Of a stretch of 64,000 bases of DNA, positions 7,150 through 62,584 are shown piece by piece. Location: NCBI GenBank assembly GCA_031763025.1, contig JASSKH010000043.1:563501-627500 (forward strand), read 5' to 3'. A program made the position numbers and the translations under genes. This stretch comes from Macrocystis pyrifera (taxonomy: Eukaryota; Sar; Phaeophyceae; Laminariales; Laminariaceae). Positions within the stretch are counted from its first letter, which is position 1. Every line of letters starts with the position of its first letter. Under the pieces are notes generated by a model, which saw only the letters and a program-made list of their open reading frames with translations, made no database searches and was not told where the DNA came from.

Positions 7150-7415
7150 TGGAAGGCTTGAGCTATAGGTGGTACTTCATCTGCACATGTTTTGAAGGTT
7201 TGAGCTACAGAAGATAGCTCATCTACACACATTTTCCCAGGCTGAGCTATAGGAGCTACATGAGTTACAGTAGCTCATCTGCGCCCGAGATGAGCTATAG
7301 GAGCTACATGAGCTACACATGTTTCCCCCGGCTTGAGCTATAGGCGGTAGCTCATCTGCACATGTTTTCGAAGCGTGAGCTATGCAATAGATGAGCTAGC
7401 TCATGAGCTGTCGGG
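7150..7415. repeat. AGCTCATCTGCACATG / GCTTGAGCTATAG tandem repeat
   Basis: Variants of GCTTGAGCTATAGG alternate with AGCTCATCTGCACATGTTTT about five times. GAGCTA and TAGCTC are complementary, so the array is also rich in small palindromes, ending in GATGAGCTAGCTCATGAGC. It lies directly upstream of the truncated 5' end of the helicase frame and may mark the breakpoint. Confidence 0.7.
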
Positions 7416-9770: not shown

Positions 9771-10254
9771 TCGCCACCATCGCTGCTTGCTGACAATCCC
9801 GATGACCGAATCGAGCACTGCTACCTGAGCGCCCTAGTTGCCGTCTCGTCGAACGCCACGGGTGTGACGCTGTGGGACGGTTAGCTGCGGACCAAACACA
9901 ACACGTATCGCGGGGAATGCACTCTCCATCGCTATATTAATAGCGGCATAGGACGATCGAATAAGCAATCGCTCTCAAATCAGGCACAATCACCGCGGGA
10001 GGCATTTATTGTGGCACCATTCTTGCATCTTTGACAGATATTTGCTTACTAACGACCCGATACACGTGCATACCGCGTGCCATGACTAACCCCAGACCCG
10101 CCAATCCGTTCTGGTCAGGTTCATCGGGACGGGAGAAAAGCAAGCAATTGGAATTAGCTTCTAAGTCTCAAAATCTACGGCCTACTTTATTGAGGCCGCT
10201 TTGAACTCAACAGTACTTTTTTTGGTTGACACCAAACTAACGCAGAATGACCGT

Positions 10255-12345
10255 TCAGGTCAAAATAGCTTGGCACACCCCTCTTTCGAAGCGAACCAGA
10301 TATAATGCCGTTGGAGGGGCACTAGAAGGCACGGAAGCGCGGCGTACCAACCCCCCATTGGTGCGCTCTGCGTCCGTCCCACCACGATGGGGTCGTGATC
10401 GCGACACTGAGCAGGTCGCTTCCCGTCCAGTCCGTCCTTGGTCTCTTCCAACACCTGGCACACCTGGCAATGCGCTTAGAAATTGGGGGCAGTACAAGAG
10501 ATCATTCCTAAGCCAGGCGCATAATGTGGCGGCACAGTCCGCCATATGCTATACTAACACCAGTTGCCTCAAGCAGCAGACATGCGAGCAGTCCTTGCTG
10601 GGGTTGTTCACGACGATTTCCTCAGCATGCTGCTTGCAACACCCCGTCGCCTAGCTGCTCTTGAAAACTAAGTGTGTCCCCCGGACGTTGTGACAAATGC
10701 ATACCACGAACGTTCAACATGATATCCCCATCGTGTGGCTTGAAATAAACTGCCGTCTTGCTGCTCCGATGTTGAAGGTCGATTTCGACGTGCAATGGTC
10801 ATGTGCGCAAACCTACGGACTCACACCATGCCATCCTTGGGATGTTGTTCGCAGCACGCCGCCGTTATGTTGCCCTCAAAGTTGGAAGATGATTGCCTCG
10901 TGCACGTGTCATGTGAACAGCGGTCGCAAATGATGTTTCAGCATGCCGTCCTTAGCATGCTGTTTGCAATACGTTGCCTACTTGCTGTCCTCGACACTAA
11001 ACGTCGGTGTCTTTGTGCAGGGATCAAATGAGTATTGCTGAAGACGGACGTTCACCATGCCACCCGTTGCTTGCTGCTTGCAGTACACCGGCGTCTTGTT
11101 GCCTTAGACACTGAACTTCGGCCGCGTCTCGCAAGAGTGGTGCGAGCAACTCCAGTTGAGGACGTCAACCATGCCCTGCTCGGCTTACTGCTGACAATAC
11201 GCAGGCTCATTACCGTCCTTAACACATAAAGTCGGCGGCCTTATGTAGGAGTCATATTAGCACTGTTTGGCAAAAGGGAGTTCACCATATCATCAGTTGC
11301 ATGCTGCCTGCAGTACACCGCTGTCTTGTTGTCCTCGACATTAAAGGTCGGTCGCGTTTCGCAAGAGACATGTCCACAGCTCTTGTAAACCACGTCAATC
11401 ATGTCGTCTGCAGCAAGTTTCCCGCAGTACACAGCCGTAATTCTGCCCTTGGTATTGCAGTACGAGAGAAATGTGAAGAACGCCTATCACGGACGCTTAC
11501 CATGCCATCCTTAGCATGCTGCTTGCAAAACAGGCCCTCCTTGGACCCCTCATAATTGAAAGTCGGTTGCGTGCAGCATGAGTCTTGAAAACAACGTCTG
11601 GAACGAACGTTCACCATGCCGTCCAAGGCATGCTCTTTACAGTACACCGCCGTCTTGCTGCCCTCGGTATTGAAGTACGGTCGGTTCTTGCAAGAGTCAT
11701 GTGGGCAACGCTTATCTTTCACGTTCACCATGCCATCCTTAGCATGCTGCTTGCAAAACACACCCCTCCTGCTGCCCTCTGTATTGAACACCGGTTGTTT
11801 CGAGCAAGAATCGTGTAAGCAAACTCTGCTACAGACGTCCACCATGCCGTCCTGAGCATGCTCCTTGCAGTACCTCGGCACCTTGCTGCCTTTGACGTTA
11901 TAGCTCGGACGTTTTGTGCAGATGTCATGCGAGCAATGCTTATCACGGACGTTCACCATGCCGTCCTCAGCATGCTCCTTGCAGTATACTCCTGATGGGC
12001 TGCCCTGGACATTGAAAGCCGATCGGTTCGTGCAGGAACCATGCGAGCAAAGCTTGTTCTTGACGTTCACCATGCCATCTGCGGCATGCTGCTTGCAGTA
12101 CGCCGCCGTCTTGCTGCCCCTGGTGTTGAAGGCCGGCCACTTGGTGCAGGAGCTATGTGAGCAATAAGTGCCACGGACGTACACCATGCCGTCTTCGGCG
12201 TGCTGCTTGCAGTACGCCGGAATCTTACTGCCCTTGATATTGAACGTCGGCGGCCTTGTACAGCCGTCTTCTAAGCAACGCTTGATAAAGACGTTCACGC
12301 TGGCTTGCTTGGCATGATTCTTGCGGTGCACAGCCTGGCTACCCT
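10255..12345 (-). pseudogene. EsV-1-7 repeat gene, copy A minus-strand locus (3' half decayed)
   Basis: The minus strand from 12,331 to 11,399 is open for about 310 codons and encodes seven full EsV-1-7 repeats (C-X4-C-X16-C-X2-H, linker DGMVNV), with all Cys and His retained. The eighth repeat (SSHFSRT...) has lost part of its core and the frame. Repeats continue in another frame (CGHVSCETRPTF at about 11,340) and then decay with stops down to a C-terminal remnant GLDGKRPAQCRDH at about 10,420. That remnant corresponds to the last repeat of the intact gene at 61.6 kb. The 5' end shows a decayed extra repeat and no in-frame ATG, so an upstream exon would be needed. The same core lesion is in copy B, so it predates the duplication. 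The preserved part may still be expressed as a short array. Confidence 0.8.
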
Positions 12346-16639: not shown

Positions 16640-17255
16640 AGACAGAGAAGTATAAAGTATATTTTACTTCTGAGCCGACGCCCGATTGTGCGTAGATTTT
16701 CCCATGATGCGTACCAAACATACGACGTACTACAGATACTAGTAGTATGGTTTCGTATTGTACGAGTACTATAAACAACTGCTACTGGTCGTGCAGCAGT
16801 TCCGATGGTAGCACAGCGAACATGGTACTCGTATACCTAGCACTCTGCCGTAGCACTATCGGTATGCATACTACGGCTTAGTGCAACTGCTAGCAGTACT
16901 GCTGTGTCAAAACGTACGCACGGTACATGCTATTAATAGTGACATCTCTATCGTACGCCACTTTTGATACGTAACACATACGTACCTGCTGTTTGGTTTA
17001 CAACAACACTGTTGCTGCCGTATCATACGTGAGTACAGCAGCAGTACAGCATAAAATGTACAGCAGCAAGCAGGAGTACAGCAGTGACCCCTCTATAGTG
17101 CCGGTTGCCCGCTCAAGTGTCTGTGGTATCGCTTGACACAAAAGGAACTAACCAGTGTCGTAGTGTGCGGAGTAGTGCCGGTTGCCGCTAGAGTGCCGGT
17201 ATTTTTAGCGGGCGCATACTGGCACAATAGAGGGCCCACTGCTGTATTTGTAGCG
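16640..17255. repeat. AGTAC/CAGTA-rich low-complexity stretch
   Basis: The stretch is dominated by short near-palindromes such as GTACAGCAG, TACGTAC, GTACTCGTA and CAGTACTGCTG. It aligns with 40,790-41,320 in copy B, with many small TA-flanked indels between the copies (see findings). No gene is seen. Confidence 0.6.
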
Positions 17256-19430: not shown

Positions 19431-21352
19431 GGCAGCAACGCCCTCAAGCGCTGCATGATACGAGTTGCTCGAGGAGGGGTGTGGTCCTTGTTCAGCTTGA
19501 TCGACAGGGCTCGCTTCTTCGCGGGAAAAGGGCCAGACTATAATTACCACCAATTACTAGTATTAATAGTATTAATAGTATAATGCCGGACGCGGAGTTC
19601 GGAATGGAGTGTGAAAAAAGTAGGCATTTTGGTTCGGAGAGGAAGTTGCGAATACAATGGGTGCCTGTTGTTGTGTTCGGGATACGGACGGTAAGGCAGG
19701 ACCCCTGGACAAAGCAGTCGCGATGCAAGCTCCGTGTGCCTTGACTTAGGCGGGTAAGAACAAGCTTGCGCTCTAGCAGATGATGGTCGTCTTCGTGTTA
19801 TTCGTGCGCGGTAACTCATCGTCAGCGGGGCACCCACCATGAGGAATTTTATCAAAACCCACCTGAACAACACCATACAAAACAGCAGGAGTACACCCTG
19901 GTATATAGACATGTAGTAAATACCACCGCACGGTAAAAAACAGGGCAGTGAAGAGCAGTAGGCTGGTGCAATTCTCACCTGCCGCTCGTTGTGCGCCTTT
20001 TGCCCCTCCGTGTCTTCATATCTCACCCCACTATACGAATACGCAAGATATGTGGGGTCGTTCGCAACTGGGCACTCCTTCCTCCACAGCGCAGACCTGA
20101 TACTTTCTACCACCCTGTCTCAACCTTTGAGGAGCTTTTCACATCAATAATGAATACAAATGGTCCTTATATATCGAGACAGATTGGTATCATCCTTTTC
20201 CCTGTCCCCGTTCTAGTGCCGCCTCTAAACATTGGAATTCCCAGCTTTAACCTTGGTTTTGGGGCTCCTTTCTTTTGTACCTGATGTGCTGTTGAGGTGT
20301 GTGTGGTGTGTGTACGAGGGTAGTGAGTAGCAGCACTCGAGTGGGACGAGACCCTCTGGCAGGCTGAGATGGACAAGGAGCGGGATGAGCTAAAGACTCA
20401 AGGTTGACAGGTAAGAGTTGCACCGCTGCTTGTGTGTATGTTCTTTGTTCTCTCTACAAGTATTAAAATTAATATTAATAGTACCCATCGACATCCAGGA
20501 TACCTGGTACCTCTTACTGTTGTGTCTGATATGTACCACTGCTGTTGACGTAAATATAACGACCTTTGACAATATAATAAGAATACAAATTGCTCCTTAT
20601 ATTTACGTCCATAGTGGTACAGGAGCATCACAGGACGCCTATGATACGTACCAGGTACACAGACAGTACTATTCGTAAGAAACCGGAAAACTTGTTCGGG
20701 CTGGAGTTCTTATTTGAGCATGGGCCTGTTCTGCGTTCTGTACTAACTTCAGTATAACCGATTCTGGATTTTTCATTCTCCTGCAAATCCCAATCCCAGC
20801 CCGCCTTTAGTCTTGCCCGCTGTGTTTTCTTGGTATGCGTTCTACTACCTGTATTGGTAGAGATGTGTGTCGTATTATACAAGCTCCAGCTCTGAGTTCT
20901 GTGGTCACAATTACTAGTAAATGGGACATCGCGAATTTAACTGCAAGGAGATCACCGTATGACACGAACGAAATCACAACCCGTTATCTTATCAAATACA
21001 GTAGTAGTACAGCAGCAGTGCATGTTTGACATTTTGGGATGTTATCACGGGATGTATGGGCTGCTGCAGGCGAATGTGTGATCACCGGCACGCACGGGAG
21101 CCGCCGCAGCTGGAGGGGGGGGGTGCTGTATAACGAGGGGCTGTGATAGCGAGGGGGTGTTTGAACGGAACATTGCTTGCCGACGAGTGCGACTAGACTC
21201 GACCAGATTATAGGACGTGTGGTAAGGAGGAGGGTGGGGTGCAAGCTGTATCTTGGATTGCTACTGCTGTAAGTGGTGTGAACAGACCCCGACTAGAATG
21301 CAAGAAGTTTGATATCAACGGGGTGTGTCACAGCGGGAGTGTCAACAAGGGG
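19430..21352. other. Duplicated non-coding stretch
   Basis: It aligns with 41,760-43,646 in copy B. Open frames here are not conserved between the copies, so I call no gene. Small indels, including two TATTAATA motifs in tandem at about 19,561-19,578 and one at about 20,475, separate A from B. Confidence 0.5.
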
Positions 21353-21516: not shown

Positions 21517-22124
21517 AGGCCCACGGTTGAACCCGGCTGCAAAGAGAAACAAACGCCTTGCTGCGATACTGGAGAACGGTTACCGGTACCACGCTCGATG
21601 ATGAAACTACCGAGGATTGCACGTCAGAGGCCTTATCCCACTGAAAACCTGACTGATGACATCTTGCTGTGAAGCGTTTCTTCCTGCCCACACCTATAAA
21701 CGCAATACCGTATTACTGCTGTAGTCGCGCTGGTTTGTAACAAGTTCCGTGTTCGGCCCACTACGGCGATGGGGCGCAGCAGTAGCCTCCATGCTGGTAC
21801 CGGTTTGCATGCGGGTGCGTGTTGTGAGTGTAAGGTATCCACCGGAGGTGTGGTCACATATCGAATTGATGGTTTCTTGGCAACACATTCACAGTTTGCT
21901 TGAGGTTTACCCTTTTACAGTAGTACTGCACAGTACGTGCACCTTAATTTCACTCTAATTTCAATTGTTTAGTCCCTGCCACGGGAGTACGGTCCCAAGG
22001 AGGGTAAGCAGGGAATTTAGGTAGGAGATGACTAAAAATGGATGGGTTTAGACGTTGTAATACTCGTAGCGTTCATAGGCCGGGGATTTTAAGTTAAGTT
22101 TCGTGACAGAGCCTAGTAGCTGAC

Positions 22125-28869: not shown

Positions 28870-28974
28870 TTACGGGGGACCATAGTAAACAGGACCAAAT
28901 ATTATTAGCAAAAATAGGTAAATATACAGGTTTTTATGTATACCATAGGTCTTATTAACTATGGACCTCCGTAA
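28870..28974. mobile_element. TA-target MITE (family 1), well-preserved copy
   Basis: The element is 105 bp with terminal inverted repeats TTACGGGGGACCATAGTAAA and its complement near 28,950-28,974, and an A/T-rich centre with TAAATATACAGGTTTTTATG. It is flanked by TA on both sides (28,868-28,869 and 28,975-28,976). Size, TA target and lack of coding capacity fit a Tc1/mariner-type (Stowaway-like) MITE. Confidence 0.85.
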
Positions 28975-34171: not shown

Positions 34172-36400
34172 CTAATGCCGTTGGAGGGGTACTTCAAGGC
34201 ACGCAAGTACGGCGTACCACCCTGCACTCTCATCTCGTCCCACCTCGACGGGGCCGTGATCGTGGCACTGGGCAGGCCGCTTCTCGTCTAGTCCGTCCCC
34301 GGTTTCTTCTCGAACCTGTCCACCTGGCGATAAACGAAAAAATTGGGGTCCGTCTAAGAGATCGTGCTTGTGCCAGGCGGATAACGTGGCGGCACAGTCC
34401 GCCATGCAATACAACACACCGGTTGCCTCAACCAGCAGACATGCGAACAGTCCTTGCTGGGGTCGTCCATGATGATTTCCTCAGATTGCTGCTTGCAATA
34501 CCCCGTCGCCCAGCTGCTCTTGATAAAGAAGTGTAGTCGCCAGGACATCATGTGACAAACGCTCATCACGGACGTTCACCAAGCTATCCCCAGCGTGTGG
34601 CTTGCAATACACTGCCGTCTTGCTGCTTCGATGCTGAAGGTCGATTTCGTCGTGCAGGGGTCATGGGCGCAAACCTTGCTACGGACTCACACCATGTTGT
34701 CTTCGGCACGTGCTTCGCAACACCCCGCCGTTATGTTGCCGTCAAACTAGGAAGATGATTGCCTCGTGCACGTGTCATGTGAAAATCGGTCGCAAAGGAT
34801 GTTCACCATACTGCCCTTAGCATGCGGGTTTGCGATACGTTGCCTACTTGCTGTCCTCGACACTAAACATCGGTGTCTTTGTGCAGGAGTCAAGCGAGCA
34901 TTGCTGAGGACGGACGTTCACCATGCCATCCGTTGAATGCTGCTTGCAGTACACCGGCGTCTTGTTGCCATAGACATTGAACGTCGGCCGCGTCTCGCAA
35001 GAGTGGTGCAAGCAACTCCTGTTGAGGACGTCAAGCATGCCCTGCTCGGCTTGCTGCTGGCAATACGCAGGCTCCTTACCGTCCTTAACACAGAAAGTCG
35101 GCGGCCTTGTGTAGCAGTCATATTAGCACTGTTTGGCAAGGGCGTTCACCATGCCATCCGTTGCATGCTGCCTGCAGAACAACGTTGTCTTGTTGCCCTT
35201 GAAATTGAAGGTCGGTCGCGTTTCGCAAGAAACATGTCCGCAGCTCTTGTAAACCACGTCAATCATGCCGTCTGCAGCAACTTGCCCGCAGTACACAGCC
35301 GTATTTCTGCCCTTGGTATTGCAGTACGAGAGAAATGTGAAGAACGCCTATCACGGACGCTTACCATGCCATCCTTAGCATGCTGCTTGCAAAACAGGCC
35401 CACCTTGGACCGCTCATAATTGAACGTCGGTTGCGTGCAGCATGAGTCTTGCAAACAACGTTTGGAACGGACGTTCACCATGCCATCCACGGCATGCTCC
35501 TTACAGTACAGTACACCGCCGTCTTGCTGCCCTCGACGTTGAAGGTCGGTCGCCTCTCGCAAGACTCATGCGGGCAACTCTTGTGAACGACGTTAACCAT
35601 GCCATCCAAGGCATGCTGTTTGCAGTATTTCCCCGTCTTGCTGCCCTCGGTATTGAAGTACGGTCGGTTCTTGCAAGAGTCATGTGGGCAACGCTTACCC
35701 TTCACGTTCACCATGCCATCCTTAGCATGCTGCATGCAAAACACACCCCTCCTGCTGCCCTCTGTATTGAACACCGGTTGCTTCGAGCAAGAGTCGTGCG
35801 AACAAAGTCTGCTACGGACGTCCACCATGCCGTCCTGAGCATGCTCCTTGCAGTACGTCGGCACCTTGCTGCCCTTGATGTTATAGGTCGGGCGCCTTGT
35901 GCAGATGTCATGTGAGCAATGCCTATCACGGACGTTCACCATGCCGTCCTCAGCATGCTCCTTGCAGTATGCCCCTGTTGGGCTGCCCTGGACATTGAAA
36001 GCCGATCGGTTCGTGCAGGAACCATGCGAGCAAAGCTTATTCTTGACGTTCACCATGCCATCTGCGGCATGCCGCTTGCAGTACGCCGCCGTCTTGCTGC
36101 CCCTGGTGTTGAAGGCCGGCCACTTCGTGCAGGAGCTATGTGAGCAATGGGTGCCACGGACGTACACCATGCCGTCTGCAGCGTGCTGCTTGCAGTACGC
36201 CGGCATCTTACTGCCCTTGATATTGAACGTCGGCGATCTTGTACAGGCGTCTTCTGAGCAACGCTTGATAACGACGTCCACGCTGGCTTGTTTGGCATGA
36301 TTGTTGCGGCGCACAGCCTGGCTACCCTCGATTTTGACCTCCGATAGCCTTGGTGAGCAACTCCTCACTCTTGATACAGATGCGTGCTGTTTCGAGGCCG
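34172..36400 (-). pseudogene. EsV-1-7 repeat gene, copy B minus-strand locus (frameshifted)
   Basis: From 36,368 down to 35,475 the frame encodes a decayed first unit and then seven EsV-1-7 repeats with all Cys/His kept, the last one reading CPHESCERRPTF. A 5-bp duplication (ACAGTACAGTAC at about 35,507) shifts the frame inside a YCKEH. The next repeat (CLQDSCCTQPTF) continues in a second frame to about 35,340, where the SSHFSRT lesion shared with copy A shifts it again. More repeats (CHHSCETRPTF; DSCTKTPMF) and the C-terminal remnant GLDEKRPAQCHDHG at about 34,260 follow. B has one repeat more than A, and A's sixth unit looks like a fusion of B's sixth and seventh. No ATG is at the 5' end of the repeat frame. 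Confidence 0.85.
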
Positions 36401-38990
36401 GGGGCAGCCGTGAAAGGAATTGTGAGGCACAGCAGGGATACGTTAGACTGATTTGGGCACACCTGCCGTTGGTGCACCAGAAGTAACGACCAGCAAGTTC
36501 GAACGTGGCTACCCTTCAGTTTAAGAAACAAAACGTGGTTGATACACGACACACGCTGGACAATTAACGGTAGGACGTTTCTCCGTTTCAGGCTGAGCTT
36601 CATGGCGTAGTTGGACTACTGTCGCCTGCATTTTTATGTAAGAGCGATCAGAATGGCTCGGAACAATGCATGCTTGAAAAGTAAAAGGTATTTTTGTCGA
36701 TTTCCTAATTCCCGTCCTACATATGTCGAACGGGAAACACCCGCAAAGACTAGCTCGGTGGCTCGGCAGCAGAGTATGGAAGGGGGGGCGTGAACTACAA
36801 AAGTCCGGCTCATGTGAATGGAAGCAACTGTGCATATACTGCTTCTAGTGTGGCGTAATGTACTGCGCAGTACAGCATACTCGAGTACTGCACAGTGCTA
36901 CATAGCCAAACGCACCGTGTACAGTCCTAGGGACCGTGAGTTGGCTGGACTTCACCGCTACCCTGTTAGTTGTTAGTTGGGCGCAAACTAAGCTAACTAT
37001 AAAGTACCGACTTTAGTAATATACTCTACTGGTGTTAGTTTATACAACAACACACATTTCGAGCCACAAACGCGCCAACCGGTATTACTACACGCACCTA
37101 ACTAAATACCCAGTCCGCTATTTGTAGTCAGCCAATTCACAGCCCAAGTAGTGGCACCGGTACACAGCAGTGTTTTGTTGCTGGATGATAGGGACGTTCT
37201 ACGCCAGGGGCAGGTAGCCTTTTTGGGTCGGAATATTGGTCACTGGGACGGAGCTCGTCAACTGAGGAACTACCCGGTAGTTACCCGGTAATGATACAAA
37301 ACTTGTCTTGCACGATAGTAGTTTTTCTTTAGCCCCTATTGCGGGGGACCATAGTAAATAGGACCAAATATTGTATATAAAGGTAGCGAAATATAGTTTT
37401 TGTGTGTACCGTACTATTTTTTGTGGTCCCCCGTAAATAGGCCATGTGAGTGTTCATTGAACTACTGTATGCATGCATCATTATCAAAGTCAATTTTGGG
37501 AGAGGTACGAAGCTCCTCTCAAAACGATGAGGCTCAGAAAATCGCAGGTGTACCTCTATCGCAGCATTCTTCCTTGGATAGAGTCACTGTACGCAGCAAA
37601 TGAATGATACCATGTACTCGTATTTATTAGTGCATCTCACACGACGGTCACCCTCAAGAACGGGGCGTTGCTGTCGGTGTCCTCTAAACCACACGCAAGC
37701 TCATGGAAAGACATGTTACTCTATGTAAGCGAGGCTTCTCGTTTATATCGAGCATTCGTTCTATGAACAGAACTCTGTCTTGTAGAACTGCTGGTTCAAG
37801 ACAGGCCAATCGGGCCTGCACACCCCTCTCTAAAACCGTGACCCGCACTGTATACACCAATTAAATCACGTCTACCCCAAAGATCAGGTCATAGAAACAA
37901 CACAGAAACAAACAAACAGCAGCAACAGTAATAGCGCAGAACACCGAGAGCCTCGCAGTTCCAGCGACTTATTATCTGTATTTCGCCAGCGCAAACAGTT
38001 GATGGGCTTCTAATATCGGCCAGCACATGTTTCTCGCAAGAGCTACCCTATACTATAGTCACGTGTTTGGTACTCCTATCGTCACTATTCAGCGGCGAAA
38101 TCCTATCTGCGCTCTGCTTCCACGGTCTAATCGGTGAACCCCACTTCCACACAAACTACAAACAGATAGAGCACAGCACGAGGACATACCGTACTATTGG
38201 TGTTGCTTGGGCAAACAACACGATACTGCTTTGCGGTAGTACGATCCTGCAGTTACGACGTTATATTGCGTCGTAAGAGCAATACTACATATTTGGTATG
38301 TCGTACTGGTATTGCTTGGGGGGGGGCAACAACGCACTCTAAATAGATCGTTTATTGGTACTTCGCATATAGGATCGTTCTGGTTTCCGGTTCTATTTAA
38401 GCTTTCGAGCCAATAGCAGACGGTTCGCGCCCGCAAAGAGACAGAGTAGGTGTACGCTTCCAGGAACGCATCCACCTAATTCCCGAGAGATACCCCGCTC
38501 AATAATTGACTTTTCCACGGGCACATTTCGAATGGTTGCCGACCCCGCAAACAAATGACTAAACACACGTGAAATAGCTGCAGATCAGAAATTAGGCCTA
38601 TTTTTCTGACGAGAGACACCTTCAGATATTCGTTTGGTCGGACAATACACCGCGGTCGAGAACCCGAATTGAGTTTCTGGGGAAGCGGAGGTTGGGGCCT
38701 GGTACATACCGGAGAGACTGCGGACACAATCCGAGAAGGGTGTTGCTGATTTCCTCGGGATATCCGTCAAAAACGGGCGTACACGTCAGTCAGAAAGACC
38801 AGAGTCGAATCGAAAACATCAGATCCGCACGGTAAACTGCTTGTGTGAGAGCAATGCATACGCTACTCCTGTAATCATGTTGACCACGTACGCAGGGGGA
38901 AGGGTGGATGTGGGACCGATCGTTGGTACTGATTACTATGGCACCACGTAACAGCAACGTACTTGTACACAATGAATGTAGTCGTACGGA
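36401..38990. other. Duplicated stretch upstream of the copy B EsV-1-7 array
   Basis: It aligns with 12,400-14,950. The minus strand from ATG 36,603 is open through the leader (HQRQVCPNQSNVSLLC) to 36,322, and related peptides occur upstream of the other three EsV-1-7 loci. The leader may therefore once have been coding, although copy A has a stop in the matching frame. Otherwise no gene is seen apart from the MITE at 37,339. Confidence 0.45.
37339..37437. mobile_element. TA-target MITE (family 1), B-specific copy
   Basis: TTGCGGGGGACCATAGTAAA at one end and GTGGTCCCCCGTAAA at the other flank a short A/T-rich centre. TA lies on both sides (37,337-37,338 and 37,438-37,439). The corresponding place in copy A (about 13,360) has no element. 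Confidence 0.8.
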
Positions 38991-39160: not shown

Positions 39161-41325
39161 CTGACAGGGTGGCGACAAGGGACACCACCAATCAGCCTGT
39201 TAATCATTTAGAGGCCCAGGTGTTGAAGCCAAGAACGCGAGAGATGTTATCAACCTTTTAGGCCGAGCGTGCAACCTGTACAAGTATCACCATGCCGTGC
39301 GTGTGTGTCGCACATGTCGGGATGGGCTGAGTTGGGCTGGGTTAGGCTGGATTGGGGTCCGGCAGCACTGGTGGACTGGTGGACGGGTTGGTTAGGTGGA
39401 TGGGTGGGTGGGTATTCCCCTTCGCTTCACCCGGGGGGGCAGCAGCCCGACGTGGATCGTATGACGGATGCTGCAAACACCGTTTATTTCGGCACTTTTT
39501 GGGCCTGAAGTCCATAAGGAGTTGAAAATCGCCGACTGCAGCTTCGGCAGCAATCAGAGCACGAATGTCATTACCGCCAAGCTTGTTGGAACGAGTCGCT
39601 CGCTGAAAAGCCTACTCAGATGGTAACATTTCAGAGCCAAGAGAACCGGAACCAACGATGAGACAGGAGTGGTGTCATGACTTTGAGCCTAATCGACCTT
39701 TGAAGTAGTTCTGTAGTCATCGCGAACTCAGCAGGCCAGAGCGAGAAAACGAGAGGCCTGTACAATGTAGAAAGCGCTCGTTGATACCAGGTATGTATTA
39801 TTCCCGTGTGACTGGCAGGAGACTCATGGGCTAATTATGACGTTCTGGACGGACCGCCGCCACCTCGTTGCTGTCGGCCCGTAGCGGATTCCATGCTTGC
39901 TCATAGGGGGGAGATCAGGATGAACCAGGGTTGGGAGCAAGCAATACTGAGAAAATACGGCACATAGAGTGTCGTCGTCTTCCTCTCGAAATACTCGATC
40001 ATCGGGGTCGTCGGGGCATATTGCCCCTGGCCCGCCCCCGGGGCGCATTCCTCCGACTTAGGCGGGGGCTACGTCGACCCAACCGCCTCCCACGCCGATC
40101 CCTTCGACACCCGGTGACCCGACTGTCCTGTCGGCACACAGAAGGGCACCGCGGTCATGTTTGGCTACGTCGACTCTTCTGCTTCTAAGCACCACGTTCT
40201 CGGATCTGCTCTGCATGTCGAGGGGGAGCCGGCTGATCTGTCGATGCCCAGGGAGTCGCCGAGGCAACATTTGGCTACCGGTACGGCAAACTCTTCTGCC
40301 ACCTAGCACCGGGTTCTCGGATCTGCCCGGCAGGTCTACAGGGAGCCTGGCAGCTGCATCATCTGGATGATCGAGCACACTTCTCCTGTGGGTCGGATGT
40401 GTATCGTACAAATTCTGCACAACACTTCACAACGGCAGTTTAGGATCTACACGACCTGCTTTTACTCTGTGTTAATCGTGATATGTTCGACATGTGCAAA
40501 CGTTCCCCTAAATACTGGGAATTCGTCGCGGGTGAGGGGGCATGCATGAGCGAGACCAGGGGCGCTCGGATGGCACACTTCTTGGGGCGAATCGACAGAG
40601 AGCCGTGCAGGGAATGATATGGTGTCGATTCGTGGCCGGCGACATGAACGGGGGCAAGTTAAGCGAGCGACAGGCGGGTTTGGGGGCCTGCAGGGTAGTC
40701 AAATCGAAGTCAGGAAGTAGAAAAGCATTTTTTTCTTTTCTTCTGGGCCGACGCCCCATTTTCCGTAGATTTCCGCGTCCTGCGTACATAACATACGACG
40801 TATTGCAAGTACTAATATTAATAGTACGGTTTCGTACGGTACGAGTCCTACAAACAACTGCTGCCTACGAGTACTACAAATAATTGCTGCCGTGCGTGCA
40901 GCAGTTCCGGTGGTAGTACAGCGAACGGGGTGCTCGTATACCTGGCACTCTGTAGTAGCACTACCGGTATGCTTACTACGGCTTACAGTAGTACAACTGC
41001 TATTAATACCAGTACTGCTGTGTCATACGTACGCACGGTACCAGCGACATCTGTATAGTGCGCTACTATTGATGCGTAACATATACGTACTTGCTGGTTT
41101 GTTTACAACAACACTACGAGTATTGCTGCCATATCATACGTGAGTACAGCAGCAGTACAGCAGTACGTAAGAGTACAGCAGAAACATATATAACCCCTCT
41201 GTAGTGCCGATAACCCGCTCAAGTGCCTGTGGAATCGCTTGGCACTAATGGAACTAACCAGAGTGCGCTATTAGTAGTGTGCGGAGTAGTGCCGGTTGCC
41301 GCTAGAGTGCCTTTTAGCGGGCGCA

Positions 41326-41659: not shown

Positions 41660-43646
41660 TACGAAGTAGGAGTACGTATGATTAGTATTGATAGTAGTGG
41701 TAGTGCAGGTAGGTAGGCTGGAAGCTGGAAGGGATCTTTTTAGACTTTGCTCCTCATGTGCCATATTCGGCAGCGATGCCCACAAGCGCTGCATCATGGT
41801 ACGGAATTGCTCGAGGAAGGGGGTGGTCGCTGTCCAGCTTGATCGACAGGGCTCACTTTTTCGCGGGAAAAAGGCCCGACCAGTCGTAGTATGAGCTTGG
41901 CTAAAAAATGCCCGACTTCACTCAGATTTCGGACTGGAGTGTGAAAAAAATTGGCATTTTGGTTCGGGGAGGAAGTTGCGAATACAACGGCCAGGCGTTG
42001 TTGTTTTCCAGATACCGACGGGAAGGACCCCTGTGTGGAGCAGTCGCGACACAAGCCCCGTGTGCCCTGACTTAGGGGGGCAAGAACAAGCTTGCGCTCT
42101 TGCAAATTATGGCCGTCTTTGTGTCATTCGTGCGCGGTAACTCATCGTAACTCATCGTCAACGAGGTATAACTCACCACGAGAAATTTGATCAAAACCTG
42201 AACAACACACGAAAGAGCAGGAGTATCAATTGTGAATACCTGGAGTGTCCACTGCAAAAACAGGGGCTATATTGTGTTTGAAAGCAGAGAAAGCAGAGAA
42301 GAGTAGCTGGCTGGTGCAATTCTCACCTGCCGCTCGTTGTGCGTCTTTCGCCTCTCCGTGTCTTCATATCTCACCGCACTATACGAATACGCAATATGTG
42401 TGCGGTCGTTCGAAACTGGTCACTCCTTCCTCCAGGCAAACCTGATACCTTCTGCTTCTACCACTCCGTCCCAATTTTTAAGGACCATTCAACATCAATA
42501 ATGAATATAAATGGTCCTTTTATTTCGAGACAGAGTTTTATCATACTTTTCCCCGTCCCCGGCCTAGTGTCGCCTCAAAACGTTGAAACTCCCACCTTCA
42601 ACCAGTGCCTTTGGGGCCACTTGCTTTTGTTCGACTTGTGTGCTGCTGTGGTGTGCGTGTAGTGTGTGTACCAGGGTAGTGAGTAGCAATACTCGTGTGG
42701 GACAAGAGCACTGCTCGATACCCTCTGGCAGACTGAGATAGACAAGGAGCGGGATGAGCAAAAGACTCAAGGTTGACAGGTAAGAGATGCACCGCTGCGT
42801 GTGTGTGTTCTTTGTTCTCTCTACCCGACGACATCCAGGATATCTATCAGTCTTGTTTCTAATACCAGGTACTCGTATGTACCACTGATGTTGACGGAAA
42901 TATAACGACCTTTGACAGAGTAGTAATAATACCACTTGATCCTTATATTTACGTCCATAGTGGTACAGGAGCGCCTATGCTACGTACCAGGTACAGAGTA
43001 CTATTCGTAACAAACAGAAAAAACTGGTTCGGGCTGGATTTCTTGTTTGAGACTGGGCCTGTTCTGCATTATGTACTAACTTCAGTATAACCGATTCTGG
43101 ATTTCTTATTCTCCTGTAAATCCCAATCCCAGCCCGGATTTGTTGGCCCGTTGGGATTTCTTGGAATGCACTCTACTATTAATATCTGTATTGGTAGAGA
43201 GCTATTAGTCGTATTATACAAGCTCCAGCTCTGAGTTCTGTAGTCACACTTATTAGTACATGGGACATCGCGCTGTAACCGCAAGGAGACCATCGCATGA
43301 AACGAACGAAAGCACAACCCGCAATCTTATCAAATACAGTGGTAGTACAGCAGCAGTGCATGTTTGACTTTTTGAGATATTATCACGGGATGTATGGGCT
43401 GCTGCAGGCGAGCGTGTGATCAGCGGCATGCACGGAAGCCGCGCAGCTGGAGGGGGGGGGGGGGTGCTGTACAACGAGGGGGTGTGATAGCGAAGGGGGT
43501 GTTTGATCGGAACATCGCTTGCCGACGAGTACGAACAGACTCGACCAGATAACGGGGCGTGTGGTAAGGAGGGGGGGGTGCAAGCTGTATCTTGGATTGC
43601 TAAGGGGTGTGAACAAATCCCGACTAGAATGCAAGAAATGTGCCAA
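41660..43646. other. Duplicated non-coding stretch
   Basis: It aligns with 19,430-21,300 and, in the first 100 bp, with 17,640-17,720. Open frames are not shared with copy A. A TATTAATA micro-insertion lies at 43,177-43,184, where copy A has TA. Confidence 0.45.
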
Positions 43647-44516: not shown

Positions 44517-44622
44517 TTACGGGGGACAATATTAAACAGGACCTATCGCTTACATAAAAACCTATATATTTCGCTATTTTTACTAACAAAATTTGGTCCT
44601 ATTTACTGGCGTTCCCCCGTAA
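44517..44622. mobile_element. TA-target MITE (family 1) with an empty site in copy A
   Basis: The 106-bp element starts TTACGGGGGACAATATTAAA and ends TTCCCCCGTAA, with TA on both sides. Copy B reads GATTGAC-TA-[element]-TA-GTGACATC, and copy A reads CCTGACTGATGACATC at about 21,645. Insertion therefore followed the duplication. Confidence 0.9.
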
Positions 44623-45119: not shown

Positions 45120-46421
45120 GTTAAGCGTTCTGCTGTAGTACTGCACCGTACGTGTACCTCAATTTCACTCTATTAATAATTCCATCTGTTTAGTCCCTAC
45201 CTCGGGAGTGCGGTCCTGTGAGGGGTAAGCGGGGAACTTAGGGAGATGACTAAAAATGGATGGGTTTAGACGTTGTAATAGCGCTCATAGGCGGGGGATT
45301 TTAAGTTAACTTTCGTGACAGAGCCCGGTAAACTGACGTCACTGGGAATGCCACAGTCTCTACTCGTAGCAAAGGGGGGCGACGCAAGAAAAAATACTTG
45401 CTGTAATAGTCTCATATGCATGATAGTACGATAGGGTAGGCTAAAAGGGATACCGGGTACTTGGTGTCTACCACTAAAATGCGCATCATGTGCCAGGCAC
45501 ATGTGTACAGGATTTTTGCCGGGAACCTGAATCTGACCTCTCTTAATGGTTGACTACAGTAGTGACCCTTTTGGCGCTGTGCTAACTGTACAGACACCTA
45601 AGTCTCCCTCTAATTCCAAGTATTTTTGTGCCCGAAACGGGAGTTCAATCCTTGGAGGCATTGTTTACACATAGCATATAGCAGTAGTCAAGTGGGACCT
45701 GATTCATGTCTCCTTCGATCAGCCCGAGGGACAACTCGCTCGATCTCTGCGCAGACGACGCGTTACGGGATTTTCGGCGCCTCGCGTATATTCGACAAAC
45801 CTTGTCGACTTGCTGCTTCGTTGATCATCACGTATGCCGTCGTGGCGTGTACCGGGATATACCTGTTACCAGTATGTCTGAGGAAATGCTGCATCCACAG
45901 CATTTTTGGTTTTGGCGCAACTGCCAGATCACTTCGACGCACCCTTCAACCCGAAAAACGCCTCAGATACGAAACGCTGTTGGAACCACTCCGCCATCTC
46001 TTGTTTGAAAAACATACCTGGCCACCTATGATTTTCGACCTTGAAGCTGCTGCGTGCTCTTTTTTTTTATTTTTCAATGGGCGGTGGTGAGTTAAGACCA
46101 AGCATCTCATAGTTTTGGTCGCTATGAACGAAGAGGCGGTTACGACTGACATTTACAGCACCGGCCACCGCTTGGTCGGTGGGTCAAAATATTCCGTGTC
46201 CGAACTGTTGTTCGCGGAATCGTACGCACATCACGGGTACGGCCTGATCCTACTCATACTCGCCTGGGACGGCCGTACGCTCAGCTTTCTCGTGTGTGGA
46301 GACGGCTGAGGCGACTGAATTTACCGTTTTCGTTTTTTTCTTTTTGGTCGCATAGCTCTTGGGTTCCGAGAGAATTGTGAGGCTCATGAATGGTGTGGTT
46401 GTGTCGTCGTCCCCTTACCAG
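45120..46421. other. Duplicated non-coding stretch with an old MITE
   Basis: It aligns with 21,930-23,970. It includes the diverged piggyBac-like MITE shared with copy A (about 45,566-45,657), the empty site of the fold-back element at about 45,329, and a TATTAATA micro-insertion at 45,171-45,178. No gene recognised. Confidence 0.5.
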
Positions 46422-47519: not shown

Positions 47520-49646
47520 GTGGCATGTTGCCCTGAGCATGCTCTAATAGTAGTGAAACCACGTTCACGAGTTTGGACATGAAAATGAGAAGCACTGATG
47601 CCGACACTTTAAGCTTCATGCAAAAAATGAAGTGTGTGAGAACTACGTACCCACCTTTTTTGAAAAAAAAAATCGACTCGATCTCGCCGAGATGTCCGCG
47701 AAAGACTAAAAAACCTACTTGTTGTACTGATGTGTTACCGACATTTTGGCGGTAAACTCTGCGCTACAGCTCCAAAAAATCGCCGTCTTCGGTCAAACTT
47801 GGTCAGTGCTGAAGACGCACGCGGACGATCGCTGCGAGCTGCATTGCCCGATCTATCACCCCATCGAGATATGCAGCGAAATAAACGATGCCCAACTAAA
47901 AACAAGTATTAAATAATGGCGTTGTTGCTGCGATGCCCCGCTCAATTTTGCGAATTTCGGACAATGAATGAAGAAAATAAAGTGCACGACGATAATAAAT
48001 CAACAAAGCTTGAAATAGTTGTGTATTTTTGCGACACACGCTGAATACCATGACGGCAGAAGAGGAAGGTCTGTATCCGAGCTTGTATTCCTGTTTCCAT
48101 TCCATCTAGCGGCGCGGTGTTTCATTTGCGCTACGTTCTCCAGCTAAGGCGGTCCTCTCCCGCGGGCGGGCCTCTCGTTTTTTTTTATTTTATTGCGAGA
48201 ATAGTTCAGCGTTGTATCCCCTCGTCGACTCTAGTCGAATTTTGCGTACACATACTGCGTGCGTAATGATATGCCGCTTTCTGCGTGCCAATTTTGGCAC
48301 AGGAAAAAAAATCCTTTGGGAGGAGCCCAAAGTCACGAAAATCGACTGTAGCAGTCTCGAGATTTGCCACTAGGCCATCGGGGACGCCGGCATGGATGCA
48401 CTCGCAGCTGCGACGCCGGGGAAATATGTTGAGTGAACCCTGACGAGACTGTTTTGAATGGCATGTGACATACATACCCTACTGCTGGAAACGCCTCCAT
48501 ACGTACGTTACATCACCTGAAACTATGCCGAGCATGGAGGTATTTCTGCTGTTCAACTGGATGTGTTCGCTTCAACTTGCTGGCATTAGCTTGTGAACTC
48601 AGCCGCTGCTCTTGCCGGGGTCGTACCAGGTTGCAAACTCACTGTTATGGTCCAGTGGTATTTGTTCAAGGCTGCTTCATACCCACTCTGCAGCGGGCAG
48701 TGTGCGTTCGAGGTCAGCAGCTGATTTTTTTTTCGATAAGAGGTTTAGAGAAAAAAAATCTTGGTTGAAGACCACGAAAAAGAAGCAGAAAAGCCAACGA
48801 AACAGGCAACCTCTGCCCCGCCGCTTGATGCATGTTGGGCGACCTGCGACTGCACTAAAGCTCAGTTTTGCGAAATTCACGAGACTTCCGAGATGCAGCG
48901 AAAGCAGCATTGAGAAGAGGCTGACGAACGTGTTGAGCCTGAAACGCACGGGGTACCCGCGCAGCTCCCAACGAAGACCAAGAGGAGCATCGCAGATACC
49001 GCAACGGCCCTCCTGGCTCTGCCTGCCTGCCCGCCTGCCGCCATTCTCTGTGTCGCGAGGAATGGCGAGCGATGCGCGTGTTTTTTTGTTGGCTCACAAA
49101 TGATCGCCCAAAACGCCTCACTGCGATTTGTTTAAAGCTTACAAAATGTGCAAGCTTATGTTGGCATCTGCTGTCCGTTTTTGGTTTTTTCCACCCTGCA
49201 TGCTACCACCCAACGGCATAGTTGTCAAGTGTGGGTGCTATTAGTCAATATTATAACCTGCGCGGGTTGGTTCGTCTGCACCGTTCCTCGGTCGGCGGTG
49301 TAGGCAGCAGCTGGCGTCCGTATTAATAGTGCATTCACTGATCTAGTACCAAGAAGAGAAAGCAGTTCATCGAAATCCTGGAACGGCAGCCAAACGCAAC
49401 TGCCTTTTTTTTCAATGACATGCCTGGACGACCGACCGTAGCAAGGTGCCTTCACGCACCACAGTACAGCTGCCGCTGCCAGCTTGAGGCGGCTTGTAAC
49501 GAAACAAGGTCAACGCGAGTTTTGCCCAAGCTCGTTTCGTTTTTGCGGACCCACGGTCGCTCGAATTAGGCCATATGCAGGTCGCAGCAAATAGTTGTAA
49601 AGACATAGGATAAACCGTGCCGGCACACACATACACACACCAACTA
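47520..49646. other. End of the recognisable copy B
   Basis: It aligns with 25,000-26,340 and then 27,660-28,300 of copy A. B lacks the recombinase insertion and has 200 bp of its own (48,670-48,870). A TATTAATA micro-insertion lies at 49,321-49,328. No gene is defensible. Confidence 0.45.
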
Positions 49647-49752
49647 TTACGGGGGACCATATTAAAGAGGACCTACGGTTCACATAAACACCCACATATT
49701 TGCCTATTTTTATTATCACTATTTGGTCCTATTTACTATGATGCCCCGTATT
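49647..49752. mobile_element. TA-target MITE (family 1)
   Basis: It starts TTACGGGGGACCATATTAAA after TA (49,645-49,646) and ends CTATTTACTATGATGCCCCG followed by TATTA. The centre has CATAAACACCCACATATTTG, the reverse orientation of the 28.9-kb copy. Confidence 0.8.
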
Positions 49753-51748: not shown

Positions 51749-51854
51749 TTACCGGGGACCCTAGTAAATAGGACCTACGGTACGCACAAAAAACTATATA
51801 TTCACGTATTTTTTACTAAGAATATTTGGTCCTATTTACTATGGTCCCGCGTAG
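51749..51854. mobile_element. TA-target MITE (family 1)
   Basis: It lies between TA (51,747-51,748) and TA (51,855-51,856). The left end is TTACCGGGGACCCTAGTAAA and the right end CTATTTACTATGGTCCCGCG. The centre (GCACAAAAAACTATATATTC) matches the 44.5-kb copy. Confidence 0.85.
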
Positions 51855-54325: not shown

Positions 54326-54577
54326 CCCCCCCCCACCCCCACCATCACAATCGGGGCGCATTGGCGTGTTGAGGAGTGGTATTAATAGCGGGCGTCGGCA
54401 CATACGAGAGCGAGAAAAATAAAGCACAACTAACAAGAAATCAACGTATGAAACTTGCGGCAGCGATGAGACGGTTGTTATTTTTCTTTCAGTTGGCGCA
54501 GGTGTACCGCGTGACACAGTCAACGCATGAAAAAAACGATGATTGAAGCATCGCTTTTTCCGGGGCTGTTGACGGGT

Positions 54578-61209: not shown

Positions 61210-61561
61210 GTACCGACATGGCCTTTAGCTTAAAATCAGCTCTTGCCGTCAGTTGCATTCCATAGACGGGCGCTCCGCACAAACAATGCAACAAAACACC
61301 ACAAGCAACCATTTTGTCTATGCGTTTGGTCGGAACGAATAGCGTTCGGTTTTTATGTATTGCTGCGCGCGTGTCAAGCCGGCGTCAACCCTCAAGGCGG
61401 AAAACACCCACGTTTGCGAGACCCTCAAAGTCGTAATTAGTTGTTATTTGCTGGTTCATTAGAGGAAGCTGTGCTCTGCTCAGTTTAACGCACTCCTCCT
61501 GTGCCCCCCTGTCCCTCTGCAACTTCCGAATGCATCAAAGCACCAACCTACCGTGGCAAGA
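61210..61561 (+). promoter_or_regulatory. Conserved 5' flank/leader of the EsV-1-7 gene
   Basis: This flank matches 30,009-30,300 in front of the decayed paralogue (CGACATGGCCTTTAGCTTAA; TGCGAGACCCTC; GAAGCTGTGC). It is also related to the minus-strand leaders at 12.45 and 36.5 kb. In the frame of the repeats it is open from 61,463 (peptide KLCSAQFNALLLCPPV), but no upstream ATG is present. It may be promoter and 5' UTR, or the end of an upstream exon. Confidence 0.5.
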
Positions 61562-62584
61562 ATGAGGCGTTGCTTACACGACTCCTGCACGAGTATCCCG
61601 ACTTTCAATATCGAAGGAAGCAAGCCAGGGGTGTACTGCAAGGAGCATGCCGAGGACGGCATGGTAGATGTCCGTATCAAGAGCTGCTCCAGTATTTCCT
61701 GCACAAAGCGACCGACATTCAATGTTGATGGCAGCAAGACGGCGGTTTACTGCAAGAAGCATGCTGAGGACGGCATGGTGAACGTTCGTTATAAGCGTTG
61801 CTCGCATGATTCCTGTGCGAGGGTGCCGAGTTTCAATGTCGAGGGCAACAAGAAGGCATCGTACTGCAGGCAGCATGCCGAGGACGGCATGGTAGACGTT
61901 CGTAGCAGACGTTGCTCACATGTTTCGTGCACAAAGCGACCAACGTTCAATGTAGAGGGCAGCAAGATGGCGACGTGCTGCAAAGAACATGCCCAGAAAG
62001 GCATGGTGAATGTCCGTGCCAAGTGTTGTTCACATGACTCCTGCACAAGGCGACCGAATTTTAATTTCATTGTGGAGGGCAGCAGGATCGGAGTGTACTG
62101 CAGAGAGCATGCTCTGGACGGCATGGTCGATGTCCATAATAAAAGTTGTTCACATCACTCTTGCAAGAGGCGGCCGACGTTCGACGTTGAGAGTAGCAAA
62201 ACGGCGAGGTACTGCAGGCAGCATGCCTTTGAAGGCATGGTGGACGTCCTCAGCAAGCGTTGCTCACATGTCTCTTGCGTGAAGCAGCCGACATGGGGTA
62301 TAGCGACCTACGGTGCCGCCACTGTATGCGTCCGTCACAGGGACGACCTCTTCGACGGTCTCGTCATCAACTTTAAAGCAAATTGTAAAGTCGCTGGTTG
62401 TGGAAAATACTCGAGATGGGGAACCAACGGGAAACAACCAACCCACTGCCGGGATCACGGCCCCTACGAGGAAGGGCTTATCGACATTGTGGGAACGGAT
62501 CGCGCCAAGGGGGGCTTCCGTTCCCCACCGTCCCGTGCGCGAAAAATCCCCTCCCACGACGTTAAACCTGAATGTTCGTTCTGA
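61562..62584 (+). CDS. EsV-1-7 repeat protein, intact, eight repeats
   Basis: The frame encodes 340 residues from ATG 61,562 (MRRCLHDSC) to a stop at 62,582-62,584. It consists almost wholly of eight consecutive units starting near residues 4, 42, 80, 118, 156, 196, 234 and 275. Units 1-4 and 6 are 38 residues with C-X4-C-X16-C-X2-H and the linker (D/E)GMV(N/D)V. Unit 5 has two extra residues in the core, unit 7 has a longer linker, and unit 8 has X15 and the form CKVAGCGKYSRWG...HCRDH. A basic tail with PPSRARK follows. Cys and His spacing suggests metal binding; the biochemical role of the family is not established, though one Ectocarpus member is a developmental regulator. No signal peptide or membrane segment is seen. 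Upstream sequence is open without ATG, so an extra 5' exon is possible. Confidence 0.88.
   Translation: MRRCLHDSCTSIPTFNIEGSKPGVYCKEHAEDGMVDVRIKSCSSISCTKRPTFNVDGSKTAVYCKKHAEDGMVNVRYKRCSHDSCARVPSFNVEGNKKASYCRQHAEDGMVDVRSRRCSHVSCTKRPTFNVEGSKMATCCKEHAQKGMVNVRAKCCSHDSCTRRPNFNFIVEGSRIGVYCREHALDGMVDVHNKSCSHHSCKRRPTFDVESSKTARYCRQHAFEGMVDVLSKRCSHVSCVKQPTWGIATYGAATVCVRHRDDLFDGLVINFKANCKVAGCGKYSRWGTNGKQPTHCRDHGPYEEGLIDIVGTDRAKGGFRSPPSRARKIPSHDVKPECSF

Follow-up and report, generated by a model that had tools for sequence, protein, structure and literature searches.

Paralogous copies, candidate scars and MITEs in the window

The window, the whole stretch of 64,000 nt of Macrocystis pyrifera DNA that was analysed, contains two paralogous copies, A and B, family 1 MITEs, and 11 occurrences of the palindromic 8-mer TATTAATA, several of which are candidate excision scars (Table 1). 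The alignment of A and B comprised 15 blocks, 13 of them at 72-90% identity and one short block at 67%; the last block, at 45%, is not truly aligned.

Table 1. Occurrences of TATTAATA and family 1 MITEs, in window coordinates
Feature	Position	Remark
Candidate TATTAATA scar, copy B	40816..40823	A (16743) has TA; shift-tolerant survey
Candidate TATTAATA scar, copy B	41001..41008	A (16891) has TA; plain in alignment
Candidate TATTAATA scar, copy B	43177..43184	A (20846) has TA; plain in alignment
Candidate TATTAATA scar, copy B	45171..45178	A (21956) has TA; survey and block alignment
TATTAATA, copy B, no clean scar/empty pair	49321..49328	A counterpart is TAACCAATA
TATTAATA, copy A	16931..16938	within a 10-bp A/B difference
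Double TATTAATA (TATTAATAGTATTAATA), copy A	19561..19577	starts at 19561 and 19570; B poorly aligned there (69%)
TATTAATA, copy A	20473..20480	within a 27-bp A/B difference
TATTAATA	9935..9942	without aligned counterpart in the window
TATTAATA	54380..54387	without aligned counterpart in the window
Family 1 MITE, 105 bp, TTACGGGGG...CCTCCGTAA between TAs	28870..28974	
Family 1 MITE, 98 bp, copy B	37339..37436	aligned part of A without MITE
Family 1 MITE, 106 bp, copy B	44517..44622	A (about 21648) without MITE
Family 1 MITE, 105 bp	49647..49751	mutated right end
Family 1 MITE, 106 bp	51749..51854	

An earlier note on this DNA had listed five positions at which B carries TATTAATA where A has TA, and four of these were recovered; the fifth, 49321 against 28153, is not a clean pair, as A has TAACCAATA and the alignment there reaches only 70%. 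Two of the four are plain in the alignment, while the pairwise aligner shifted the 6-bp gap by a few bases at 40816 and split it into 5+1 at 45171, and reading these two as TA versus TATTAATA requires that the gap be placed at the TA. The further copies that the note had described in A are present, including the two in a row, but none of them forms a clean pair with a TA in B. The survey of all indels that had been called for was made on paralogous alignments covering 304 kb of the same contig and 8 short loci, tolerating shifted gaps and filtering on the flanks. Nine of the 36 six-bp indels that passed could be written as TA versus TANNNNTA, and 5 of these 9 were TATTAATA: the four in the window and one outside it, with its TA counterpart near window position 7305.

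Family 1 elements are about 105 bp long and lie between TAs, with termini TTACGGGGG...CCCCCGTAA; in the consensus, the two ends form a stem of 26 bp. A sample of 288 kb from this genome combined the window and neighbouring sequence with 8 loci picked for the MITE end, and contained 41 copies of 98-110 bp (modal length 105). The search that gathered these copies demanded that they end in TA or a near match to it, so that their TA is partly built in. The family is short, uniform in length and high in copy number, has terminal inverted repeats (TIRs) and lacks a long reading frame, the structural class of a MITE. Its exact end TATTACGGGGG occurs 66,605 times genome-wide on both strands (control, 212), which equals about 33,000 two-ended elements. 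Since allowing one mismatch raised the ends found in 304 kb from 43 to 79, the real count of elements probably lies at about double this figure. The MITE end had 0 matches when viral contigs were scanned with its pattern. The search for empty sites with joined flanks in the 288-kb sample returned, among the matches listed, just imperfect paralogues and microsatellite noise.

The window also carries EsV-1-7 cysteine-rich repeat frames, which suggest a brown alga, with 114-base repeats at 11399-12331 (minus strand), 35475-36368 (minus strand) and 61463-62584 (plus strand), the Pfam match having been tested for the first and the last of these only. A Tc1/mariner transposase carrying an EsV-1-7 domain is described for Ectocarpus in PMC12477816. 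Between 17262 and 17700 lies a long repeat with 9-base spacing, which gives poly-leucine when read on the minus strand.

TATTAATA is enriched in the window and genome-wide

A dinucleotide model predicts 0.57 occurrences of TATTAATA in the window, corresponding to a 19-fold excess (Poisson p = 3e-11). The possibility raised in the earlier note that the word might be no commoner than expected is countered by the 537-Mb, 223-contig assembly, which holds 94,130 copies of TATTAATA compared to 7,522 of the reversed word; the latter, although of the same composition, is thus 12.5 times rarer, leaving an excess of about 86,600. In the 288-kb sample, no word of the form TANNNNTA other than simple repeats was enriched as strongly as TATTAATA (43 versus 3.2 expected under the dinucleotide model). 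Among the words that keep 0-5 bases of both MITE ends between TAs it stood out with 22.7-fold and 6.5-fold excess under order-2 and order-3 models, respectively, followed by TAGTAATA (6.2 and 2.2) and TATTTAATA (4.5 and 1.9).

The sequence context of TATTAATA resembles that of MITE targets. At positions +1/+2/+3 outside the TA, G, T and A had frequencies of 0.62, 0.49 and 0.45 at MITE targets and of 0.40, 0.55 and 0.62 outside TATTAATA (288-kb sample), compared to 0.20, 0.30 and 0.29 for all TA sites. The match is good but not complete, the +1 G being lower in the scars.

One host site occurs intact, occupied and scarred

Family 1 MITEs insert into one another, and a TA site inside the MITE, TTTTTAC-TA-ACAATATTTGGTC, was found genome-wide in 9,583 intact copies and in 226 matches to the MITE-occupied pattern. 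All 100 occupied matches listed show family 1 sequence, in both orientations; by hand count about two thirds of these inserts are exactly 105 bp long, and the rest fall short of this by a few bases or exceed it by up to 14. Some of the 100 are near-identical neighbours on one contig and therefore not independent. Six-bp insertions at the same site numbered 151, and among the 100 listed 71 were exactly TTAATA and 18 further ones differed from it by one substitution. Reversed-pattern controls of the intact, occupied, six-bp and TA-N-TA searches gave 0 matches each. The earlier note had looked to related strains for one site in both MITE-occupied and footprint states; both states are present, together with the intact TA, among paralogous copies of a single host repeat. 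Its consensus carries just one TA at this position, so that the direction of the change, from TA to scar, is known.

Altogether 245 sites of the form TA-N(1-12)-TA were detected at this position, and the 100 listed displayed a graded series of junctions. TTAA, that is TATTAATA, accounted for 37, and 9 more contained TATTAATA within compound junctions such as the double scar TATTAATATTAATA and a scar joined to TACTGTA. Less frequent were TTTAA (6; 2+3 terminal bases kept), TTAAA (3; 3+2) and TTATAA (1; 3+3), as well as the shorter TTA (6) and TAA (3), which may represent 2+1, 1+2, 3+0 or 0+3, and A (5) and T (1). CTG and CAG occurred 4 and 3 times. In total, 38 of the 100 fit no simple combination of kept ends, the 9 compound ones included. 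At one copy (C190:7151410) TATTAATA is followed by a MITE.

Scar frequency depends strongly on the host site

At a TA site within a high-copy SINE-like repeat, tRNA-like by eye (copies L003, L004, L006 and C133), TATTAATA was found in 0 of the 100 listed of 199 matches, while TACGTA, which may mark a subfamily, made up 47 of these 100 by hand count. A second SINE TA site yielded 0 exact and 1 compound TATTAATA in 31. At a second MITE site TATTAATA occurred in 10 of the 100 listed of 540 matches, along with 21 CAG and CTG scars taken together and 21 TG, plausibly a slippage product. A TA in another repeat had exact TATTAATA in 2 of 9 matches. These uneven counts imply that scars abound at certain sites and are scarce elsewhere; this dependence would follow the site preference of the MITE itself, for which occupied counts come from one site alone.

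Two other junction types were noted. TACAGTA/TACTGTA lies near 45553 and 40984 in the window and also occurs genome-wide at MITE sites; of the 100 junctions listed for one MITE site, 12 were CAG and 9 CTG, the roughly equal numbers that a 3-nt CAG overhang with a single mismatch should produce. This suggests a further TA element, one with CAG...CTG ends as in Sleeping Beauty-type elements. The pair TACTCGTA/TACGAGTA, located near 22061 and 41115, was enriched in the 288-kb sample (42 versus 6.1) and was present in 8 and 4 of 100 listed at the SINE TA site (hand count). It is possibly a further scar type or a tandem duplication, CTCGTA being a plain tandem duplication at the SINE site.

Probable excision mechanism and proposed assignment to Tc1/mariner

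With a probability of about 0.9, we interpret TATTAATA as the scar that family 1 MITEs leave on excision. The earlier note had proposed an element with termini TT...AA inserted at TA, and this agrees with the termini of family 1 and with the TA that flanks the insert at either end in the 226 occupied matches. Its further proposal, a Tc1/mariner-type excision that leaves two terminal bases on each side and thus TA-TT-AA-TA, is supported by the six-bp insertions and the side-product junctions. A transposase acting in trans would insert the MITE at TA and duplicate the TA. On excision, the 3' cuts would coincide with the element ends and the 5' cuts would mostly lie 2 nt within the element, presumably leaving 3' TT overhangs on both flanks; both overhangs would read TT because the element ends are TT...AA. 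Since two TT overhangs are unable to pair, host repair would fill in and join them, yielding TA-TT-AA-TA. Retention of 1 or 3 terminal bases would be less frequent, and a cut or a loss varying by one base would give rise to 2+3, 3+2, 3+3 and 2+1, all four of which were seen. The main junction itself is not uniquely splittable, as 2+2, 1+3 and 3+1 kept bases look alike.

Two traits of Tc1/mariner elements were found. The TA target is duplicated, with one TA at the intact site and a TA at each flank of the insert in the occupied matches, a pattern that demanded this form and left other forms of duplication outside the count. Furthermore, few terminal bases remain between the TAs after excision, mainly 2+2 (or 1+3, 3+1) and to a minor extent other combinations. 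Two other assignments were not supported. The 3-bp TAA/TTA duplication of PIF/Harbinger (Tourist) elements was not observed, since at the host sequence CTAA the two flanks of the insert have just TA in common among the 226 matches, whose pattern fixed this form. CTCCCTC is the Stowaway end, and it differs from the TTACGGGGG termini of the MITE. Rice Mariner elements are listed with TIRs starting with CTCCCTC in Table 1 of PMC4423477.

Several described systems are comparable. For Stowaway MITEs of grasses, PMC1925063 reports footprints of 1-4 bp of terminal sequence between TAs. As in that report, family 1 is found at TA, its empty sites carry short terminal pieces between TAs, and loss recurs at one site. 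Unlike the Stowaway elements described there, it has different ends, leaves one dominant palindromic footprint rather than several footprints at one gene, and has left tens of thousands of candidate scars in a single genome. The Tc1/mariner transposase of ISY100 is reported to cut two nt inside the 5' ends, and in vitro it shares the TA target with family 1; this system, however, is bacterial and its transposase is known, whereas here we infer the cut from the scars alone (PMC2170065). Among brown algae, the Mariner-Tc1 MITEs described for Ectocarpus, such as TcMar-N1_Ec32, depend on an autonomous partner, as family 1 presumably does; TcMar-N1_Ec32 measures 217 bp compared to about 105 bp here, and the likeness was drawn from the description of these elements (PMC12477816). 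The words 'footprint' and 'excision' have 0 occurrences in the main text of that paper.

The assignment to Tc1/mariner is by mechanism only, and an element of some other superfamily that targets TA and cuts with a similar stagger is an unlikely but not negligible alternative. The superfamily is unreadable from a MITE alone, and a search of the genome with the DDE_3 profile alone gave 0 matches at E <= 0.001 (3 candidates scored). On the other hand, a TA target, its duplication and scars of short terminal bases are the Tc1/mariner pattern in the systems described in PMC1925063 and PMC2170065, and Mariner-Tc1 copies, mostly MITEs, are reported as abundant in Ectocarpus (PMC12477816).

Other sources of the scars

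We consider it distinctly improbable that the scars stem mainly from another, perhaps autonomous, TA-targeting element with TT...AA ends instead of the 105-bp MITE. A partner with the same ends would leave an identical scar, and a longer, 361-bp element with these ends is located on the same contig. However, the TA-flanked inverted repeats of the 288-kb sample (pairs 40-600 bp apart, low-complexity filter) showed only two starts listed more than twice, TTACGG (18) and CGGGGG, a word inside the same ends (13), and thus no other TT start; moreover, the 100 inserts listed for the occupied host site are family 1 MITEs, mostly of exactly its modal length.

The counts inside MITEs could also reflect one scar amplified as a MITE subfamily, since transposition of a MITE could carry along a scar inside it. 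We compared 40 scar-bearing MITE copies, 36 with TATTAATA and 4 with other junctions. For 21 of the 40 the nearest neighbour was itself scar-bearing, not more often than by chance (16.8 expected; p = 0.25), and near-identity was confined to one pair, L065/L066. The mean distance was 0.340 among scar-bearing copies and 0.228 among 54 unscarred copies, a gap that arises partly by construction, since a recognisable left end was required of the unscarred copies but not of the scarred ones. The scar-bearing copies thus appear as independent events with no sign of a subfamily, although one might account for part of them. Amplification is further opposed by the different junctions and the double and compound scars at the same site, and by the location of TATTAATA in the 288-kb sample, where 0 of 43 occurrences, among them the four A/B scars, fall inside the 41 MITEs; it is very improbable as the general explanation.

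Least credible of all is that TATTAATA is a slippage by-product of AT-rich or microsatellite sequence, for although TATATATA and TAATAATA are enriched too in the 288-kb sample and a fifth-order Markov model shrinks the excess to 2.3-fold, that model contains the word itself, as high-order controls do, so that we placed no reliance on them, and both the rarity of the reversed word and the predominance of exact TTAATA at one host site speak against slippage.

Extent and meaning of the excision record

Excision by family 1 is thus the preferred source of TATTAATA, and the candidate scars, counted as the excess over the reversed word, are of the same order as the surviving elements, or above; in this balance some TATTAATA are not scars, and strongly mutated elements fall outside the count. 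The mechanism is already known, while what is new, as far as our literature search showed, is the MITE family and how large a record it has left; the search found no genome-wide scar count of this kind, which does not prove that none exists.

Normally, excision is invisible once the element is gone. Here, the palindromic 8-mer scar is countable from one assembly, and host repeats show a single site empty, occupied and scarred. Excisions per surviving copy can thereby be estimated, and double-strand-break repair in the alga read, without a cross. We give even odds to the broader proposal that a single MITE family has left about 87,000 readable scars, at least as many as its surviving copies, at sites that were re-used, as suggested by double scars and by a MITE re-inserted at a scar, and that at least one further family is recorded by the scar type TAC(A/T)GTA. 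The genome would then constitute a quantitative natural assay, in a brown alga, of both the cut-and-paste balance and the repair of double-strand breaks.
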